A stretch of 64,000 bases of DNA, from the NCBI RefSeq assembly GCF_000210295.1, contig NC_026738.1, forward strand, positions 1,116,001 to 1,180,000, given 5' to 3'. Both the position numbers and the translations under genes were made by a program. The notes below the pieces were generated by a model that made no database searches, had not been told where the DNA came from, and worked only from the letters and a program-made list of their open reading frames with translations. Each line of letters opens with the position of its first letter. Positions within the stretch are counted from its first letter, which is position 1. Source of the stretch: Trypanosoma brucei gambiense DAL972. Its lineage: Eukaryota; Euglenozoa; Kinetoplastea; Trypanosomatida; Trypanosomatidae. Below are positions 3,262 through 41,125 of this stretch, piece by piece.

Positions 3262-4407
3262 ATGAGACGGTTTGTGCCACATCACATGCTGGTTACACGG
3301 AGTTTATGGTACTCTGCTGTCTTTTTTCGAGGACGGAGAGAAATGTTAAAACCCCTGGCGATGTCATCAGAAACTCCCGCATGTGCTGTTGAGGAAGTTG
3401 CAACACATCCTCAAGTTTCAATTAATGAAAGTATTTGCAACTCACTTGACAACCTGCTCAGTGAAACCGCTTCCCAGCGTGCTGCGGTTACGAGGGTTGG
3501 ATCTCTACCATCATACTACAAACCGATGAACCTTCGTGGTGTATTGTATGAAGGCGATGTGGCACAACAACTTGCGAATGCAGCGGAGTTACGAGGTTTC
3601 CGATCGCCTGTTTGGGCTACAAATGCATCATATATACGAGGGGGTTACACAGTGCTGGAATGTGAGGTTGGGGTTGAAGTGAGCACCTCGATGTTTAACG
3701 TGGTTCTTTACAACCTGCAGCAAACGAACTCTCCGGAGGCCGATTCGTGCGTTGCGCTTGCGTCGGTGAAGGCCACGCCACTCTGCGCAGCGGGGCGACC
3801 CTTCTCTCGAAGACTGCGGCTGGTGCTTATGAGTCACCCCTTCTATACACGATTCAAGTCACAATATTGGGTAACTGAAGAGGAAGCTGCAGCACTTGGA
3901 ACAATGGTGATGACAAGTGAGCGGGGGCGTTGTGTTCCCGTGCCCTGTCCTCCTACAGTGACTGAAATGTCTTCCGCCACAAGCCGTGATCCTCGTGTTG
4001 AGGACAGCGACACTCCTCCAGGGGAATCTGCTGTTCCTTTGATGTTGTATAATGCGGAGCAATTGGAGAACCCCAATGCAGCAAGCAGTGAGACTTGTCC
4101 TCGAGTTGAATGCGTAAATGCCAATGGGAGGCGTTATAGCACTCTCTTGACTATTCACATGCGGCGGTATTGCCAACTGCACCAGTTGTGCACAGATCCC
4201 TTTGCAACATTTGTCACATGTGTCCGTCTCCGCTCTCTTGGAGGTGATATTGTACCTGGTGCCGGTGTTCCTCTTACTTTGGTTGTGAGAGATGAATTAT
4301 TGACACTTTATCATGTGGATCAAACAACGATATCTAACACGTTATTTCGGCAGGCCTTGTCTGGCCAGCGGAAGTATATGGACCGGGTTTCTGTGATTCA
4401 AGTTTAG
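3262..4407 (+). CDS. Tc-38 (p38)-family mitochondrial nucleic-acid-binding protein
   Basis: This 381-residue protein has a basic, Ser/Arg-rich N-terminus that looks like a mitochondrial presequence. I see about three copies of a 70-90-residue module. Each starts with a G-x-x-Y/F turn, runs through a W(A/V)T-x-x-x-A element (VWATNAS, YWVTEEEAA) and ends near a Y(N/H)-x-x-QT element (YNLQQTNSP, YHVDQTT). That pattern is typical of the kinetoplastid Tc-38/p38 family. Its founding members bind single-stranded DNA and are tied to kinetoplast minicircle replication. A paralogue lies at 40211-41125. The family assignment rests on motif style recalled from memory; the specific ligand is unknown. Met9 and Met29 are alternative starts, but Met1 follows the predicted splice site. 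Confidence 0.62.
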   Translation: MRRFVPHHMLVTRSLWYSAVFFRGRREMLKPLAMSSETPACAVEEVATHPQVSINESICNSLDNLLSETASQRAAVTRVGSLPSYYKPMNLRGVLYEGDVAQQLANAAELRGFRSPVWATNASYIRGGYTVLECEVGVEVSTSMFNVVLYNLQQTNSPEADSCVALASVKATPLCAAGRPFSRRLRLVLMSHPFYTRFKSQYWVTEEEAAALGTMVMTSERGRCVPVPCPPTVTEMSSATSRDPRVEDSDTPPGESAVPLMLYNAEQLENPNAASSETCPRVECVNANGRRYSTLLTIHMRRYCQLHQLCTDPFATFVTCVRLRSLGGDIVPGAGVPLTLVVRDELLTLYHVDQTTISNTLFRQALSGQRKYMDRVSVIQV

Positions 4408-11822: not shown

Positions 11823-14800
11823 ATGAAAATAGGAACAAAAGCTGAGCTCATTTTGCACGGGGGCGAATGTTTTAGCGGAGTTTCATTTGGTTATGAAGAA
11901 AGCGTTGCGGGAGAGGTTGTTTTTACCACAGGAATGGTTGGTTATCCTGAAAGTCTTACGGACCCTTCGTATCACGGTCAGATATTAGTGCTTACCGCAC
12001 CCATGGTCGGAAATTATGGAATCCCTCCACTGGAGACGGATCCTTTTGGAGTAACAAAATACTTCGAGAGCATGAATGGGGAGATTCGTGTGAGTGCGCT
12101 CGTCGTTTGCGAATGTTGTGAAGAACCTTCGCATTGGCAGATGTATGAGACACTTGGTGCATGGCTAAAGCGAAATAAGGTACCAGGAATCATGATGGTG
12201 GACACTCGCAGTGTTGTACTGAGGCTTCGGGAAATGGGTACAGCTCTGGGAAAGGTTGTTATCAACGGCGCTGATGTGCCTTTTGTGGATCCTAATACAC
12301 GCAACTTGGTAGAAGAAGTGAGCACAACAGCCCCTCAGTCCTATGGGCATGGTACATTGAGGATCCTCGTTATTGATATGGGTGTAAAATTAAATTCGTT
12401 GAGGTGCTTACTGCGGTATGATGTCACACTTACTGTTGTGCCACATGATTGGGATATAACGAAGGAAACATATGATGGCTTATTTATTTCTAACGGACCA
12501 GGTAATCCTCAACTGTGTACCAAAACGATTGAAAATGTACGATGGGCTCTCACTCAAGAAAAACCGATATTCGGTGTTTGCATGGGTAATCACATGTTGG
12601 CCCTCGCAGCAGGAGGAACGACGTACAAGATGAAGTTTGGTCACCGAGGTCAGAACCAGCCATCGACATCGAATCAAGATGGACGTGTAGTAATTACAAC
12701 GCAAAATCACGGGTTTGCCGTAGATTTCAAATCCTTGCCGCAGGGCGATTGGGAAGAGTACTTCTTTAACCCCAATGATCAATGTAATGAAGGGTTACGG
12801 CACCGCACGAAGCCCTTTTCATCAGTTCAGTTTCACCCTGAGGGTTGCTGCGGTCCACAGGACACCGAGTACCTTTTCGGAGAGTTTATTGACCAGGTGA
12901 AGCGTTCAAAAACGAAGTTGGCAGCACAGTTTAAACCCCGCAAGGTTTTGGTATTGGGTGCTGGCGGCATTGTTATTGCCCAAGCTGGCGAATTCGACTA
13001 CAGCGGCTCCCAGTGCTTAAAGGCTCTGAGAGAGGAAGGTGTGAAGTCTATACTGGTTAATCCCAACATTGCCACTGTGCAGACAGATGATGAAATGGCT
13101 GACCAAGTGTATTTTGTACCCGTCACTCCTGAAGCTGTGGAACGAGTGATTGAGAAGGAGCGTCCAGATGGTATTATGCTCGGATGGGGCGGGCAAACAG
13201 CACTCAACTGTGGGTTACAGTTGGACAAACTTGGTGTCCTCAAAAAGTACAATGTGCAGGTTCTTGGAACAGCTATATCTACAATCACTGTGACCGAGGA
13301 TAGGGAGCTCTTCCGCAACGCGCTTTTGCAGATAAATGAGCCTGTGGCAAAGTCCGTAGCAGTGACCAGTGTGGCGGAGGCATTAAAAGCAGCGGCAGAC
13401 ATCGGATTTCCAATGATGGTGCGAGCGGCTTTTTGCCTCGGTGGTCAGGGTAGCGGTATTGTAAATAGTGAAGAGGAACTGAGTAATAAAGTTGAGGTTG
13501 CCCTTACTGTGGCACCTCAAGTCTTACTTGAGGAAAGCGTTGCTGGTTGGAAGGAGATCGAGTACGAAATTGTCCGTGATATCCATGATAATTGCATTAC
13601 GGTGTGCAACATGGAGAATTTTGACCCCATGGGCGTCCACACAGGGGAGTCCATTGTTGTGGCCCCGTCTCAAACTTTGACAAACGAGGAATATCACATG
13701 TTGCGTACCGCAGCGATCAAAATCATCCGTCACCTTGGCGTGGTGGGCGAGTGCAACATTCAATACGGTTTGGAACCCCACTCGCGTCGTTACGTTGTTA
13801 TTGAGGTGAACGCCCGCCTCTCACGTTCCTCCGCACTTGCGTCTAAGGCCACGGGTTATCCACTCGCACACGTGGCAACCAAAATAGCCCTTGGTAAGGG
13901 TCTGTTTGAAATTAAGAATGGTGTTACAAAAACAACGATGGCTTGCTTTGAACCCAGTCTTGATTACGTCACCGTCAAGGCTCCCCGTTGGGATGTGGCA
14001 AAGTTCAATATGGTGAGTCAAGAGATCGGGTCCATGATGAAGAGTGTTGGTGAAGTAATGGCCATCGGTCGTACATTTGAGGAGGCCGTGCAGAAGGCAC
14101 TGCGAATGGTGGATCCATCGAATAACGGCTTTGACACTCCCAAAAGGCTTGCTGAAATGGGTGACAAGTGGGACTACATGCGGGCGCTGCGCGTTCCTAC
14201 GCCAGATCGCATCTTTGCGATTTGCCGTGCCTTGAAGGAAGGCATCACAGTGGATGAAATACATCGGTTAACTCGCATCGACAAATTTTTCCTCAACAAG
14301 TTACAACTCCTGATCAAGATGCAGAGGGAACTGACCACGCTATACAGGGGTAAACTGGACACAATCACATATGACCACCTCCTTGCTATGAAAGCGCACG
14401 GTTTCAGCGACGCGCAGATTGCTGAGTACCTCCAGTGCACAGCTGACGATGTACGGAAACGGCGCTACAAGTTGAACATTACCCCCAAGGTGAAGCAAAT
14501 CGATACAGTCGCTGGCGAATACCCCGCCGCGCAGTGTTGCTATTTATACACCACCTACAACGCACAACACGATGATGTCGAATTCAACGATCGTATGTAC
14601 GCCGTGCTTGGTTGTGGTGTGTACCGGATTGGCAGCAGCGTGGAGTTTGACTACGGTGGTGTCTTAGTCGCTCGTGAGCTCCGTCGACTCGGTAACAAAG
14701 TGATTTTGATTAATTATAACCCCGAAACAGTGTCCACAGATTATGATGAATGTGACCGCTTGTACTTTGAAGAGGTGTCAGAGGAGACAGTGCTCGACAT

Positions 14801-16697
14801 CCTGCTCAAAGAAAAGATTAGCGGTGTTATCATATCACTGGGTGGACAAATTGTCCAGAATATGGCCCTTCGATTGAAAGAGCATGGGCTGCCGATCCTT
14901 GGGACAGATCCTGTAAACGTTGATAAGGCAGAAGATCGCAACAAATTCTCGAAAATGTGCGATCAACTGGGTGTACCGCAGCCCGAATGGATTTTGTCAA
15001 CAAGTGTTCAAGATGTTCACGCGTTCTGCCAGCGCGTCGGTTTCCCGACACTTGTGCGACCAAGCTATGTGTTGAGCGGCTCTGCTATGGCTGTCATATC
15101 GTCTCCGGAAGATATTGACCGCTACCTCACTAAGGCTTCGTTGGTTTCTGGTACTCATCCTGTTGTGGTGAGCAAGTACTACGAAGGTGCAATGGAATAC
15201 GACGTTGATATCGTTGCCCATCACGGCCGTGTGCTCTGTTACGCGATTTGCGAGCATTTGGAAAATGCTGGTGTACACTCAGGAGATGCCACGATGTTCC
15301 TTCCTCCACAGCACACCAAAAAGGAGGTCATGAAACGCATATACGAAGCGGCCACACAAATTGCCGGAGAGTTGGATGTTGTCGGGCCCATGAACGTTCA
15401 GTTCTTGCTCACTAAGGACGAGCAGCTGCGCGTGATTGAGGCGAACATCCGCAGCTCACGTTCCGTGCCGTTTGTTTCCAAGACGCTTGGCATATCGTTC
15501 CCAGCCGTCATGGTTTCCGCGCTTCTATCGCGTCCCGACTCCGAACTTGTGCCAATCCGTCGTGCTAAGATGACTCACATTGGTTGTAAGGCTCCTATGT
15601 TCTCATTCAACCGACTCGCTGGCGCTGACCCTATCCTCGGTGTGGAGATGGCATCCACGGGTGAAATTGGCGTATTTGGCTGTGACAAACGAGAGGTGTT
15701 TCGTAAAGCAATGCTTTGCCAGAATTTCCGGTACCCGACAAAAGGTGTTTTTATCAGCTCTGATGTGGACGCAGTCACTGAGGAGCTCCTCCCCCACCTC
15801 GACAAGATTTCAAAGACGTTACCACTTTTTGCATCAACACACACCGGTGCTGTGCTCACCAAGCACGGCATTCCGCACACTGTCTTAACTCAAAGGCATG
15901 AGGATGGTGACAATCCCACATACGAAGTGGAGCTCGCGGCGAGGCGATTTGACCTCGTTATTCAGCTACGGAATAAAAGGAAAGATTTCATTCTGCGAAA
16001 CTGCACGCGCGAAAATGCACCACCAGACTACTGGGTCCGACGCCTTGCTGTTGACTACAACGTAGCACTCCTTACCGAGCCCAACGTTGTGAAGATGTTC
16101 TGCGAAACCCTTGACATCATTGGTGATATCGAGATCGAACCATTCCGCTACTACGTACCTCGCGTATATCACAAAATAGAGAGCAACAACTGCACTATGC
16201 TGCGCCACCACAAGGTTGGTCTCTGTATTAATCCTACGATGGATAGCAAGGTCCTCGCCATACGTATGCGCGAAGAGAAAATCGATCTCACATGCTTCCA
16301 CGCGTCTCTCGGTGGATCGGTCACGAGCAGCGAGGCCTTTGCTGAGGAGTTCCGGTCACTTAAGGTTCCCGTGGAAGTTGTAGATCTCCGTAACGAAATG
16401 GCAGAACTCGCCTTCGATATGGTGATGGCTCTCATCGCAGAAGAAGATAACAGGTGGCACTTGCCAGCGCTGGCTGAACACGTCATTGGTGTGCACCTCC
16501 TCACTGCGATGCAGGAGCGAGGTGTTACTGTTGTTGCACAGTGCTCATCACAAGGGAGGAAGGGAATGAATTTTGAACGCTATGCCCGCATGCTTCAGCC
16601 GAAGATGGGTGTTTATAGCCCGTGGCGAGACCAACGTATGCTAAGTGATTTCCCTACAGAGGCTGAAAAAATCAATTTTCTTAAAAACATGAGGTAA
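11823..16697 (+). CDS. CPSII: Glutamine-dependent carbamoyl-phosphate synthetase II
   Basis: This 1624-residue fusion carries the first step of de novo pyrimidine synthesis: glutamine, bicarbonate and 2 ATP give carbamoyl phosphate. Residues 1 to about 370 are the small subunit plus class I glutamine amidotransferase, with SNGPGNP, nucleophile Cys253 in GVCMGN, and His338/Glu340 in QFHPE. From about 380 to 900 is the first ATP-grasp synthetase half, starting at KVLVLGAGG. The second half runs from about 935 to 1450 and the last part is the allosteric domain. There is no fused aspartate carbamoyltransferase or dihydroorotase, so it is not a CAD protein. Those activities are separate genes in trypanosomatids. 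GVCMGN replaces the more common GVCLGH/Q. The ATG follows a clear leader. The next ORF starts only 17 nt after the stop. Confidence 0.97.
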   Translation: MKIGTKAELILHGGECFSGVSFGYEESVAGEVVFTTGMVGYPESLTDPSYHGQILVLTAPMVGNYGIPPLETDPFGVTKYFESMNGEIRVSALVVCECCEEPSHWQMYETLGAWLKRNKVPGIMMVDTRSVVLRLREMGTALGKVVINGADVPFVDPNTRNLVEEVSTTAPQSYGHGTLRILVIDMGVKLNSLRCLLRYDVTLTVVPHDWDITKETYDGLFISNGPGNPQLCTKTIENVRWALTQEKPIFGVCMGNHMLALAAGGTTYKMKFGHRGQNQPSTSNQDGRVVITTQNHGFAVDFKSLPQGDWEEYFFNPNDQCNEGLRHRTKPFSSVQFHPEGCCGPQDTEYLFGEFIDQVKRSKTKLAAQFKPRKVLVLGAGGIVIAQAGEFDYSGSQCLKALREEGVKSILVNPNIATVQTDDEMADQVYFVPVTPEAVERVIEKERPDGIMLGWGGQTALNCGLQLDKLGVLKKYNVQVLGTAISTITVTEDRELFRNALLQINEPVAKSVAVTSVAEALKAAADIGFPMMVRAAFCLGGQGSGIVNSEEELSNKVEVALTVAPQVLLEESVAGWKEIEYEIVRDIHDNCITVCNMENFDPMGVHTGESIVVAPSQTLTNEEYHMLRTAAIKIIRHLGVVGECNIQYGLEPHSRRYVVIEVNARLSRSSALASKATGYPLAHVATKIALGKGLFEIKNGVTKTTMACFEPSLDYVTVKAPRWDVAKFNMVSQEIGSMMKSVGEVMAIGRTFEEAVQKALRMVDPSNNGFDTPKRLAEMGDKWDYMRALRVPTPDRIFAICRALKEGITVDEIHRLTRIDKFFLNKLQLLIKMQRELTTLYRGKLDTITYDHLLAMKAHGFSDAQIAEYLQCTADDVRKRRYKLNITPKVKQIDTVAGEYPAAQCCYLYTTYNAQHDDVEFNDRMYAVLGCGVYRIGSSVEFDYGGVLVARELRRLGNKVILINYNPETVSTDYDECDRLYFEEVSEETVLDILLKEKISGVIISLGGQIVQNMALRLKEHGLPILGTDPVNVDKAEDRNKFSKMCDQLGVPQPEWILSTSVQDVHAFCQRVGFPTLVRPSYVLSGSAMAVISSPEDIDRYLTKASLVSGTHPVVVSKYYEGAMEYDVDIVAHHGRVLCYAICEHLENAGVHSGDATMFLPPQHTKKEVMKRIYEAATQIAGELDVVGPMNVQFLLTKDEQLRVIEANIRSSRSVPFVSKTLGISFPAVMVSALLSRPDSELVPIRRAKMTHIGCKAPMFSFNRLAGADPILGVEMASTGEIGVFGCDKREVFRKAMLCQNFRYPTKGVFISSDVDAVTEELLPHLDKISKTLPLFASTHTGAVLTKHGIPHTVLTQRHEDGDNPTYEVELAARRFDLVIQLRNKRKDFILRNCTRENAPPDYWVRRLAVDYNVALLTEPNVVKMFCETLDIIGDIEIEPFRYYVPRVYHKIESNNCTMLRHHKVGLCINPTMDSKVLAIRMREEKIDLTCFHASLGGSVTSSEAFAEEFRSLKVPVEVVDLRNEMAELAFDMVMALIAEEDNRWHLPALAEHVIGVHLLTAMQERGVTVVAQCSSQGRKGMNFERYARMLQPKMGVYSPWRDQRMLSDFPTEAEKINFLKNMR

Positions 16698-16714
16698 AGG
16701 TTCAATCAGCAGCG

Positions 16715-17323
16715 ATGGAGACACACAGTAGTATCTGTGGCATTACATGTGGATTGGGCGGCGAAGTCGCAACGCCTACACCACGGATGGTTCTCCCTGC
16801 GTCTAAATGTCCCGCCACACCCGAGTTTTGCTCTATTGCATTCCGTGCGGCACGCTGCGTCCGCATCAACGACGTCGATGTCACACCGGTTCAGGCCCTG
16901 CAGCTGGCGAACGAGATTGCCGGTCGCAATGGTGTCGGTCTTGAACACACTCAAAACAATGAGATGTGCGAGGCGCCAGGTATGACACTACTTTCCAAGG
17001 CTCTACACTTTATCTATGACGTGTGTTTCGATCGCGGTAACACTGATGCCTTCCGTATGTACTCCCGGCATGTGTCATCCATGCTTTCCTCACGCGGTTT
17101 CGTTGAGCGCCAAACACTATCTTCATTGGAGGCTATCCGTCATTTAACAGCGGATGTGGACGGTGTGGTGGATGTGGAAGTGAACCGAGGTGAAGTGATA
17201 TTCCTAAAGGTATCGCACGTCTCACGGCCCGTAAAGCTTCGACTGACCAAAATCATGACTGACGAAGAGCTCGAGGAGGTGTTCCAACCCGGTGACGGCA
17301 CGTTCGGTGATGTACAATGGTAG
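16715..17323 (+). CDS. Orphan C-terminal argininosuccinate-synthase-like ORF
   Basis: The ORF encodes 202 residues with a different frame from CPS II. From about residue 45 it follows the C-terminal half of bacterial-type argininosuccinate synthase (ArgG): a V-x-x-ALQLANEIAGRNGVG segment (GRNGVG at 70-75) matching ArgG EANRIGGRHGLG, then EAPGM (86-90), and a late FQPGDGTFG like the ArgG FSPDDRIG region. The N-terminal ATP-pyrophosphatase domain is missing. Between GRNGVG and EAPGM it is about eight residues shorter than ArgG, removing the ENR stretch that helps bind substrate, so catalysis is unlikely. The frame is fully open with gene-like base composition, which suggests constraint. The stop of CPS II lies 17 nt upstream, too close for a normal trans-splice site. 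It may be a relic, or a repurposed protein made from a bicistronic or internally spliced RNA. Confidence 0.6.
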   Translation: METHSSICGITCGLGGEVATPTPRMVLPASKCPATPEFCSIAFRAARCVRINDVDVTPVQALQLANEIAGRNGVGLEHTQNNEMCEAPGMTLLSKALHFIYDVCFDRGNTDAFRMYSRHVSSMLSSRGFVERQTLSSLEAIRHLTADVDGVVDVEVNRGEVIFLKVSHVSRPVKLRLTKIMTDEELEEVFQPGDGTFGDVQW

Positions 17324-21699: not shown

Positions 21700-22683
21700 A
21701 TGGCGGAGCTGCAACCTGTAACTAGTTTGAAGGGGAAGAGCATAATAACCGCAGCTCAGTTCACCCGCCCCGATATTGATGCTCTCATTCGCCTTGCCAC
21801 TGCACTGAAAGAGAAGATATGTGCAGGAGAGGTGTTACGTTTTCTTGAGGGTCGCATCATGACACCTCTATTCTTTGAGGATTCCTCCCGCACGCTTAAT
21901 TCCTTTTGTGCGGCCATGGCGAGGCTTGGAGGTCGCGTTGTGTACTTTAAAGCCGAAACCTCCTCCGTGAACAAAGGCGAGACACTCGGGGATACGGTTC
22001 GTACGCTGGATTCCTACAGTGACGTACTTGTGCTGCGTCACCCAAAGCAGGAGGCCATTACGGAAGCGGTTGCCAAAGCTACGCATCCCGTTTTGAATGC
22101 CGGGAATGGGGCCGGTGAGCATCCAACACAAGCACTTCTCGATGTGTTAACAATACATTCTGAACTGGGCCGCGTTGACGGTAGCACAATCGCGATGATT
22201 GGTGATCTTAAGATGGGACGTACGGTCCACTCACTACTGAAGTTGCTGGTGCGTAACTTTAAAATGAAAACCATCTTCTTTGTTGCGCCGGATGCACTTC
22301 AAATGCCACAGGATGTGGTGGACTCACTAAAGCAGGAAATAGCAGCAAGTGGCGTGACAATTCGAAGTAGCAACTCGCTGACAGAAGAAATTTTGGGACA
22401 ATGCGATGTGTTGTACGCCACCCGTCTGCAGAAGGAGCGCTTTGCCGCAGCGGCTCCGGACGAAGCGAAGGCGTTACAGGCATTTGAAGCGGCAAAGGCG
22501 GATATCGTCATTAATGCCGAGCGCATGAAGAAGGCGAAGGCGAAAATGATTGTCATGCACCCACTTCCCCGTAATGATGAATTGTGCACCAGTGTGGACG
22601 AGGACCCACGCGCGGCATACTTTAGGCAGATGCAGTACGGTATGTATATGCGGATGGCCATACTTTATAGTGTTCTCACCTAA
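21700..22683 (+). CDS. Aspartate carbamoyltransferase
   Basis: This 327-residue enzyme condenses carbamoyl phosphate with aspartate to carbamoyl-aspartate, the second pyrimidine step. The carbamoyl-phosphate loop is FFEDSSRT (58-65), where most family members have FxxxSTRT, so the first Thr of STRT is Ser. The HPTQALLDVLT segment (near residue 141) and HPLPRNDE (287-294) are the other two family signatures. Length is that of a lone catalytic chain, with no regulatory subunit or fusion. It has no PTS1 and is presumably cytosolic. It lies between OMPDC-OPRT and dihydroorotate dehydrogenase, as expected for the kinetoplastid cluster. Confidence 0.96.
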   Translation: MAELQPVTSLKGKSIITAAQFTRPDIDALIRLATALKEKICAGEVLRFLEGRIMTPLFFEDSSRTLNSFCAAMARLGGRVVYFKAETSSVNKGETLGDTVRTLDSYSDVLVLRHPKQEAITEAVAKATHPVLNAGNGAGEHPTQALLDVLTIHSELGRVDGSTIAMIGDLKMGRTVHSLLKLLVRNFKMKTIFFVAPDALQMPQDVVDSLKQEIAASGVTIRSSNSLTEEILGQCDVLYATRLQKERFAAAAPDEAKALQAFEAAKADIVINAERMKKAKAKMIVMHPLPRNDELCTSVDEDPRAAYFRQMQYGMYMRMAILYSVLT

Positions 22684-40210: not shown

Positions 40211-41125
40211 ATGATGACTGGGGGAGTCGTGGAAACTCTATGCGTAACGGGTCGTACCTTCTCACCTCAGGTGGCGGCGACTCTCTGGACGCACGGCATG
40301 GCACGGCGGCACTCGTCAAATGTGTGGGTGCCGGCGGAAATTATTGACCGACTTGGTTTGAAATTGTCAGGGACGAACCCTCCGGCTCCGGTCGGTGTCG
40401 ATGCCGCGAATGGCCGGCGATTTTTTTACAATGCATCACAGTTGGAGTGCTCACAGGAGGAGTTGGTAGCGATGACTAAAAGTTTGCTGGAGGCCCGGCG
40501 TGGCATTGCGGAGGCCATTAATGGAGATACGCATCCGCTTAACACAAATGGTGAACCCTTCCCACTGGAGTTCGCTCAGCAGGCACGACTGCGAACGAAA
40601 ACATATGAGGCAGCAGTGCAAAGCCGGTTTTGGGCGACAGAGTATGAGGCGGCTTACATCTTTCGTAGCCCGTTCAAACCATCGTTCTTAACGCCCGAGA
40701 ACGCAGTCACGGTTCGTGGTGGTGCGGTGTACCCCCGGCTTTGTTACTATAACGTTTGTGGCACACGTGATCCTAGCATCTTCAGTCATGAAACTTGTCG
40801 ACGCTACCGCCCAGTTAATTACTATGGTCAACCGTATCCTGCAGCAACTTCTGTACAGATGAAGGCACTCTCCATTCAATATGGTTGCATGAATGACACA
40901 CTGTGGGTATCGACCAGGCGTGCAGAGCGCGTAGGCGTTAAACTTCGCAGCGGTGTGAAACCATTGCTGTTTTGTGTAGAGGATATGACTTCCCTCGTAA
41001 ATGTTGCGATGACGGAGGATCCGGATCGTTTGAAGAGGGACATCCTTTCGTTCACACAGCACGGCGCAGTGAGTGGGGTTGCGCCGGCATTCACTCCAAA
41101 GAGTTTCTCACTACTCGTCTCGTAG
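40211..41125 (+). CDS. Second Tc-38 (p38)-family protein
   Basis: This 304-residue protein shows three tandem modules of 70-90 residues that share W(V/A)x-x-x-x-A/E-x-G-like elements (NVWVPAEIIDRLGLKL, RFWATEYEAAYIF, TLWVSTRRAERVGVKL), preceded by a G-x-x-(F/Y)-P/F turn (NGEPFPLEF, YYGQPYPAATS). The same pattern occurs in the protein at 3262-4407, so the two are likely paralogues of the kinetoplastid Tc-38/p38 family, which is mitochondrial and binds single-stranded nucleic acid. The basic N-terminal stretch HGMARRHSS may be a processing region. Two adjacent ATGs begin the frame. A role in kinetoplast DNA or RNA metabolism is inferred from the family. Confidence 0.62.
   Translation: MMTGGVVETLCVTGRTFSPQVAATLWTHGMARRHSSNVWVPAEIIDRLGLKLSGTNPPAPVGVDAANGRRFFYNASQLECSQEELVAMTKSLLEARRGIAEAINGDTHPLNTNGEPFPLEFAQQARLRTKTYEAAVQSRFWATEYEAAYIFRSPFKPSFLTPENAVTVRGGAVYPRLCYYNVCGTRDPSIFSHETCRRYRPVNYYGQPYPAATSVQMKALSIQYGCMNDTLWVSTRRAERVGVKLRSGVKPLLFCVEDMTSLVNVAMTEDPDRLKRDILSFTQHGAVSGVAPAFTPKSFSLLVS

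Follow-up and report, generated by a model that had tools for sequence, protein, structure and literature searches.

At positions 16715–17323 of a 64,000-nt stretch of Trypanosoma brucei gambiense DAL972 (the window: positions 1,116,001 to 1,180,000 of the forward strand of contig NC_026738.1, assembly GCF_000210295.1) lies an open reading frame (ORF) that is very probably the C-terminal piece of carbamoyl-phosphate synthetase II (CPSII), because a deposited T. brucei protein of 1832 residues (record P0005) spans both this ORF and the CPSII ORF just upstream, and its C-terminus is identical to the ORF at 201 of 202 residues. The two pieces together contain a domain resembling argininosuccinate synthase (ASS, ArgG), followed by a conserved tail. 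The relevant features, in window coordinates, are as follows.

11823..16697, + strand: CPSII ORF, 1624 residues, with GATase, CPS large chain, MGS-like part and the N-terminal half of the ASS-like domain (TIGR01368, TIGR01369, PF00764)
16212..16688, + strand: ASS-like N-terminal (HUP) half, within the CPSII ORF (TIGR00032 model positions 1–157, at place G000:C5:1132212-1132688; matches to ASS in PDB)
16227..16250, + strand: degenerate ATP loop, INPTMDSK as against VSGGLDSK in free ASS of the subfamily (alignments)
16539..16583, + strand: segment that was once the substrate loop (in free ASS, HGATGRGNDQMRFERY), shorter by one residue and lacking G, N, D and R (alignments)
16682..16697, + strand: zone of reading-frame change, in which both frames hit a stop (tblastn of P0005)
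16715..17323, + strand: C-terminal half of the ASS-like domain and CPSII tail, 202 residues (PF20979; identity to the P0005 C-terminus)
16940..16984, + strand: site of the missing ENR loop, then the retained EAPGM (alignments)
17273..17320, + strand: C-terminal tail EEVFQPGDGTFGDVQW, near-invariant and predicted to be disordered (alignment of relatives; predicted local distance difference test, pLDDT)

An ASS-like domain in two pieces

The downstream ORF begins with ATG at 16715 and runs without internal stops to a stop codon at 17321–17323, as an initial annotation of this DNA had claimed. It is not a chance ORF, since its codon usage (0.207 bits per codon) is at the level of CPSII (0.208), whereas the five remaining frames over the same DNA reach at most 0.09 bits per codon and carry 4–12 stops each. 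The homology to ArgG that had been claimed for it also stands: the Pfam family PF20979 (the ASS C-terminal domain) matches with an E-value of 1.5e-9 (38.2 bits, cut-off 27); the profile search proposed as a check did return the NCBIfam family TIGR00032, argG (E 2.4e-13, residues 28–165 on model positions 204–349), if far below its equivalog cut-off (50.2 as against 268.2 bits); and the top six of the 12 PDB sequence matches are ASS chains. A protein search with this ORF alone gave four matches among 125 candidates, the ORF itself included, which are too few to decide.

Directly upstream, the CPSII ORF passes the equivalog cut-offs both for the GATase (TIGR01368, 428 bits, cut-off 307) and for the CPS large chain (TIGR01369, 1495 bits, cut-off 1027). 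Its last c. 160 residues correspond to the N-terminal domain of ArgG: model positions 1–156 of TIGR00032 match its C-terminus (40.4 bits, again below the equivalog cut-off of 268.2), the PDB matches are ASS chains, and PF00764 is found at residues 1486–1606. A whole-genome search with TIGR00032 gave these two pieces only, in the right order, with no third match at E ≤ 1. The ASS-like domain with its tail is present in the window, then, as two pieces covering 16212–17320. The MGS-like part that precedes it (15822–16076, + strand) is a weak match (22.3 bits, cut-off 24.1); among five relatives it passes in P0021 only, is below the cut-off in P0006 and is unlisted in the other three.

Intact relatives and conservation

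A search with residues 1300–1624 of CPSII (E ≤ 0.001, 2724 candidates) led to 20 proteins, 12 of whose records bear a source name; every organism shown is a trypanosomatid. Seventeen are 1821–1872 residues long, and three are shorter (1105, 1497 and 1747 residues). Trypanosomatid CPSII, as seen in these records, is a chain of c. 1834 residues comprising GATase, CPS, MGS-like part, complete ASS-fold domain and conserved tail. The CPSII proteins of T. congolense (P0006), Herpetomonas muscarum (P0013), Strigomonas culicis (P0014), Leptomonas seymouri (P0019) and others show this same chain, with ASS-like C-terminus and tail, and are deposited in one piece, whereas CPSII of the window is split over two frames. 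TIGR00032 spans model positions 1–366 in P0006, 2–349 in P0010, 13–348 in P0021 and 1–348 in P0023 (72–100 bits in these four, below the equivalog cut-off), and homology to ASS over both domains is seen in the relatives and in the two window pieces alike.

Fifteen of the 20 relatives (all but P0005, P0007, P0011, P0015 and P0024) have a mean pairwise identity of 82.1% in the CPS core, 58.1% in the MGS-like part, 58.5% and 63.3% in the N- and C-terminal halves of the ASS-like domain, and 90.2% in the last 16 residues. Conservation of the ASS-like domain is clearly below that of the catalytic core and about equal to that of the MGS-like part; such identities suggest a domain under constraint and are unlike those of a decaying relic. 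The tail is reached by 19 of the 20 records, with F, P, G, G, F, D and W invariant in all 19 (consensus EEVFQPGNGSFSDVQW), and nearly all of its residues have a predicted pLDDT below 50. Conserved disordered tails are often docking peptides, and this one may be of that kind.

The initial annotation had seen in the downstream ORF an orphan gene lacking the N-terminal ATP domain, either a relic in decay or a protein repurposed beside a carbamoyl-phosphate enzyme. An orphan or relic gene is ruled out by the upstream N-terminal half, which lies in another frame at the C-terminus of CPSII, 17 nt away, and by the fused relatives. The suspected link to a carbamoyl-phosphate enzyme proved closer than supposed, the ORF being the C-terminal c. 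200 residues of CPSII and not a gene of its own. Repurposing stands, and the ORF does not look like a gene in decay: the whole ASS-like unit is there in all 20 related records obtained with a query holding part of the domain, with a mean pairwise identity of 58–63% in the 15 compared. Conservation in relatives, the lack of which was to have helped refute the annotation, is thus seen.

Trypanosome genes need a splice-acceptor region upstream, for which a 17-nt spacing leaves no room. This makes it extremely improbable that the ORF is a separate ArgG gene, decaying or repurposed, even though the ORF starts at an ATG of its own, stays open for 202 codons and contains no N-terminal domain; the upstream half, the fused chains of the relatives and the gene order all speak against this. 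In T. brucei 927, according to PMC3155505, a single ORF for OMPDC-OPRT (3810), and nothing else, lies between the genes for CPSII (Tb927.5.3800) and ATCase (3820). The window has the same order of CPSII, OMPDC-OPRT and ATCase, with no ASS gene between, ATCase being a separate gene at 21700–22683.

Several points weigh against our assignment of the two pieces to one CPSII chain. PF00764 barely passes in the window (27.5 bits, cut-off 27), and of five relatives only P0005 exceeds the cut-off (28.4 bits), while P0006 and P0023 fall short of it and P0010 and P0021 have no listed match. The count of 20 out of 20 relatives with an ASS-like C-terminus (by PF20979 and by alignment) is biased, because the query held the N-terminal part of the domain, and a CPSII without the domain would have been harder to find. 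Nor is P0005 a clean reference throughout, because c. 23 residues near its positions 1384–1408 are out of register with the window (c. 15970–16045); the window agrees with the other relatives there.

The frame change

The two CPSII pieces are in different frames, and in this record they do not form one continuous reading frame. How might the break have arisen? The 25 + strand ORFs of at least 200 residues in the window (one − strand ORF was left out) are separated by 24 gaps, of which one is the 17-nt gap discussed here, another is of 5 nt, and the other 22 are of 313–2381 nt. The 5-nt gap falls in an SPO11/TOP6A-like gene (35–1518, + strand) that is apparently also split, with TP6A_N in the ORF at 35–733 and Toprim, in a different frame, in that at 739–1518. 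Two genes split alike in one 64-kb window suggest slips of sequence or assembly, and we consider it probable that the change near 16690 is such a slip and that the strain makes full-length CPSII. It counts against this that the two SPO11-like ORFs look like one gene from their domains alone, and that the change in CPSII may be real in this strain.

If it were a real lesion, CPSII would end early, without the C-terminal half of the ASS-like domain, and the downstream ORF would be an untranslated remnant. The genome record does read as split, and a DNA search with 16000–17320 found the region to be single-copy in the assembly, with no second genomic copy; such a loss might moreover be tolerable, as pyrimidine synthesis is described, in the title of PMC3591441, as not essential for T. 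brucei bloodstream forms. We think a lesion unlikely, since the downstream residues still match the intact deposited T. brucei protein almost perfectly and the SPO11-like gene points to slips. We know of no programmed ribosomal frameshifting in trypanosome nuclear genes. Such frameshifting, which would yield both a short and a full-length CPSII, might be read from the brief overlap of the frames and the coding-like codon usage of the downstream one, but the deposited relatives, including that from T. brucei, are single chains, and the idea has next to no probability.

Loss of the catalytic loops

Free ASS proteins bind citrulline and aspartate through loops with the motifs HGxTGxGNDQxR, YSxDxN and ENRxxGxKSR, whose roles are known from ASS structures, and the C-terminal arm of ASS is used in the tetramer. 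Twelve CPSII domains were compared column by column with 12 of the 15 free ASS proteins of a profile search (P0033, P0035 and P0037 were left out). In the ATP loop, S, G, G, L and D are invariant in the free proteins; S is kept in four of the CPSII domains, L in three, D in eight and the two glycines in none, so that the motif SGGLD(S/T) is lost. The loss of about eight residues at the ENR loop, already noticed in the initial annotation, appears as an eight-column gap, with E, N, R and the next G absent from all 12 CPSII-type domains. Altogether, 50 of the 70 invariant ASS columns, including those of the citrulline/aspartate loops, are not kept in 75% of the CPSII domains. The C-terminal arm is not recognisable in the CPSII alignment, another tail standing in its place. 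Because the ATP, citrulline/aspartate and ENR loops are lost, the domain should not make argininosuccinate, and is predicted to be catalytically dead in this respect.

The ASS fold itself, with its HUP-type nucleotide-binding part, is retained by the CPSII domain. It is also found in the nitrile synthetase ArtA (PDB 9leh and 9lei; 11–13% identity), which, unlike the CPSII domain, is not fused to a CPS, to judge from the entry title. These likenesses might be taken to favour some retained ASS or related ligase activity, but with the ATP loop and both amino-acid loops gone, and with ArgH not found and ornithine transcarbamylase (OTC) not above cut-off in the genome, we regard this as highly improbable.

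ASS and the arginine pathway in trypanosomatids

Six-frame searches of the genome, in which controls were detected in 14 of 14 genomes, found neither a further ArgG nor an ArgH, and nothing above cut-off for OTC; the sole OTC-type match is the ATCase of the window, below cut-off. The ASS-like domain of CPSII therefore has no arginine pathway to serve. The literature on trypanosomatid ASS is divided: ASS is in all the trypanosomatid genomes studied according to PMC3846528, where the genes group within Firmicutes, and absent from Trypanosoma according to PMC3475689, with which our whole-genome TIGR00032 result agrees for this genome. The ASS of Leishmania donovani, said to be of bacterial origin and to be lacking in T. 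brucei and T. cruzi (PMC3475689), belongs to the same enzyme family and organism group as the CPSII domain; it is, however, a separate gene and active, whereas the T. brucei domain is fused to CPSII and apparently dead.

Each of the 20 CPSII records carries a precomputed Pfam match to the ASS C-terminal domain in the protein database, which makes the domain visible to automated annotation. A literature search at the level of titles and abstract openings found none that joined CPSII and ASS in trypanosomatids, and the word argininosuccinate is absent from the main text of PMC5803862, PMC10208901, PMC7052976 and PMC3155505. The fusion of CPSII to a seemingly dead ASS with a near-invariant tail is thus of interest as something present in automated domain calls and unseen in the titles and abstract openings found. 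The C-terminal extension may already be described in earlier work on kinetoplastid CPSII by Nara and colleagues.

Origin of the ASS-like domain

A profile search with the domain, which scored the 7997 candidates sharing most words, gave P0025–P0029 as the closest free relatives (E 1.9e-70 to 1.8e-65). P0028 is the ASS of Diplonema papillatum; like the other four it is free-standing (c. 420 residues), has the ASS motifs and lacks the CPSII-type tail. The start of the V-G-x-C-V-S-G-G-L-D-S-K type in these five enzymes is shared with CPSII, where it is degenerate, and P0028 and P0025 have c. 30% mean identity to the 12 CPSII domains. Of 87 pattern matches to bacterial loci, 79 were confirmed as encoding an ASS that is 60–70% identical to that of Diplonema, which hints that the gene may have been transferred laterally to early euglenozoans or to other protists. 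Many of these loci (L004–L082) are titled Verrucomicrobia, Lentisphaerae or Kiritimatiellae (PVC group), and some are of Myxococcota type.

In a careful tree, rooted at its midpoint, the 12 CPSII rows make up a single clade (100/100), whose branch has a length of 2.65 changes per column. Rows taken as bacterial (P0030, P0032, P0034 and P0036, whose records are nameless) stand apart from CPSII and the diplonemid-type rows (98/100), while the union of CPSII with diplonemid-type ASS has a support of only 80/49. A quick tree, sampling six of the 12 CPSII rows and 11 of 17 bacterial loci, separated CPSII, diplonemid-type ASS and two MMETSP rows from all remaining rows (99); CPSII stood beside the MMETSP rows (80) when the tree was free, and a constrained grouping with diplonemid-type ASS was not rejected (approximately unbiased (AU) test, P 0.716; log-likelihood 9.46 above the free quick tree). 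The two trees give no firm sister to the CPSII domain. As a tentative history, of appreciable but less than even probability, we suggest that an ASS of the kind that diplonemids still have as a free and seemingly active enzyme became joined to CPSII in an ancestral kinetoplastid; that it then ceased to be catalytic and survived in a structural or docking role in the pyrimidine pathway; and that some trypanosomatids later gained a second ASS, of bacterial origin, for catalysis.

Further genes in the window

Two genes of the Tc-38 (p38) family are present, at 3262–4407 and 40211–41125 (both + strand). The ArdC N-terminal domain is matched by the first of them too (28.5 bits, with a cut-off of 22.6), but no individual stretch reaches the cut-off by itself.

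Possible role of the domain

What might a dead ASS do at the end of CPSII? CAD, the animal fusion of CPSII, DHOase and ATCase, carries partner enzymes where trypanosomatid CPSII has its ASS-like domain; to our knowledge it has no such domain. CAD is likewise a CPSII with extra C-terminal parts, which bring pathway partners together (see also the review PMC5803862), but its additions are active enzymes, whereas the addition in the window is a putatively dead ASS, with ATCase separate. According to a survey of euglenozoan metabolism, the first three pyrimidine enzymes are separate genes (PMC7052976), and in T. cruzi CPSII co-precipitates ATCase and DHOase, all separate proteins (PMC5803862). Because of this co-precipitation, and of the position of the domain where CAD has its partner enzymes, we lean towards a scaffold or docking role, without giving it even odds: the non-catalytic domain would hold CPSII together, or use the conserved tail to dock ATCase and DHOase, which are separate proteins, or both, its non-covalent contacts doing what the fused chain does in animals. 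Two considerations count against this. Such a role would rest on position, conservation and co-precipitation as reported in a review (PMC5803862), and a model of a 1105-residue piece with CPS parts supports no docking, its contacts being unreadable (pLDDT 61, predicted template modelling score (pTM) 0.41).

In CPSs generally the MGS-like part is the place of allosteric control, and the ASS-like domain follows directly upon it. The domain might therefore be mainly an allosteric nucleotide sensor for the response to UDP, UTP and CTP, instead of or besides a scaffold. Its HUP-type fold would suit this, as would the unusual feedback of Crithidia CPSII by these nucleotides (PMC5803862), but both ATP-loop glycines are gone from all 12 domains aligned, and the MGS-like part is still present and could do the sensing alone; we find a sensor rather unlikely. 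Plain structural support of CPSII takes most of the probability left after scaffold and sensing.

In annotation, the ORF at 16715 should be treated as part of CPSII, and an ASS gene name is unsuitable. CPSII is the first enzyme of pyrimidine synthesis in parasites that infect humans and livestock. Unless pyrimidines are supplied, CPSII null mutants of T. cruzi and L. donovani show slow growth (PMC5803862). The conserved ASS-like domain could explain what keeps the separate trypanosomatid enzymes together, or the difference in their feedback. If the scaffold role and the suggested history are true, trypanosomatid CPSII would depend on a dead enzyme of arginine synthesis, and the exposed tail, FQPGNGSFSDVQW, would be a docking site for ATCase or DHOase.
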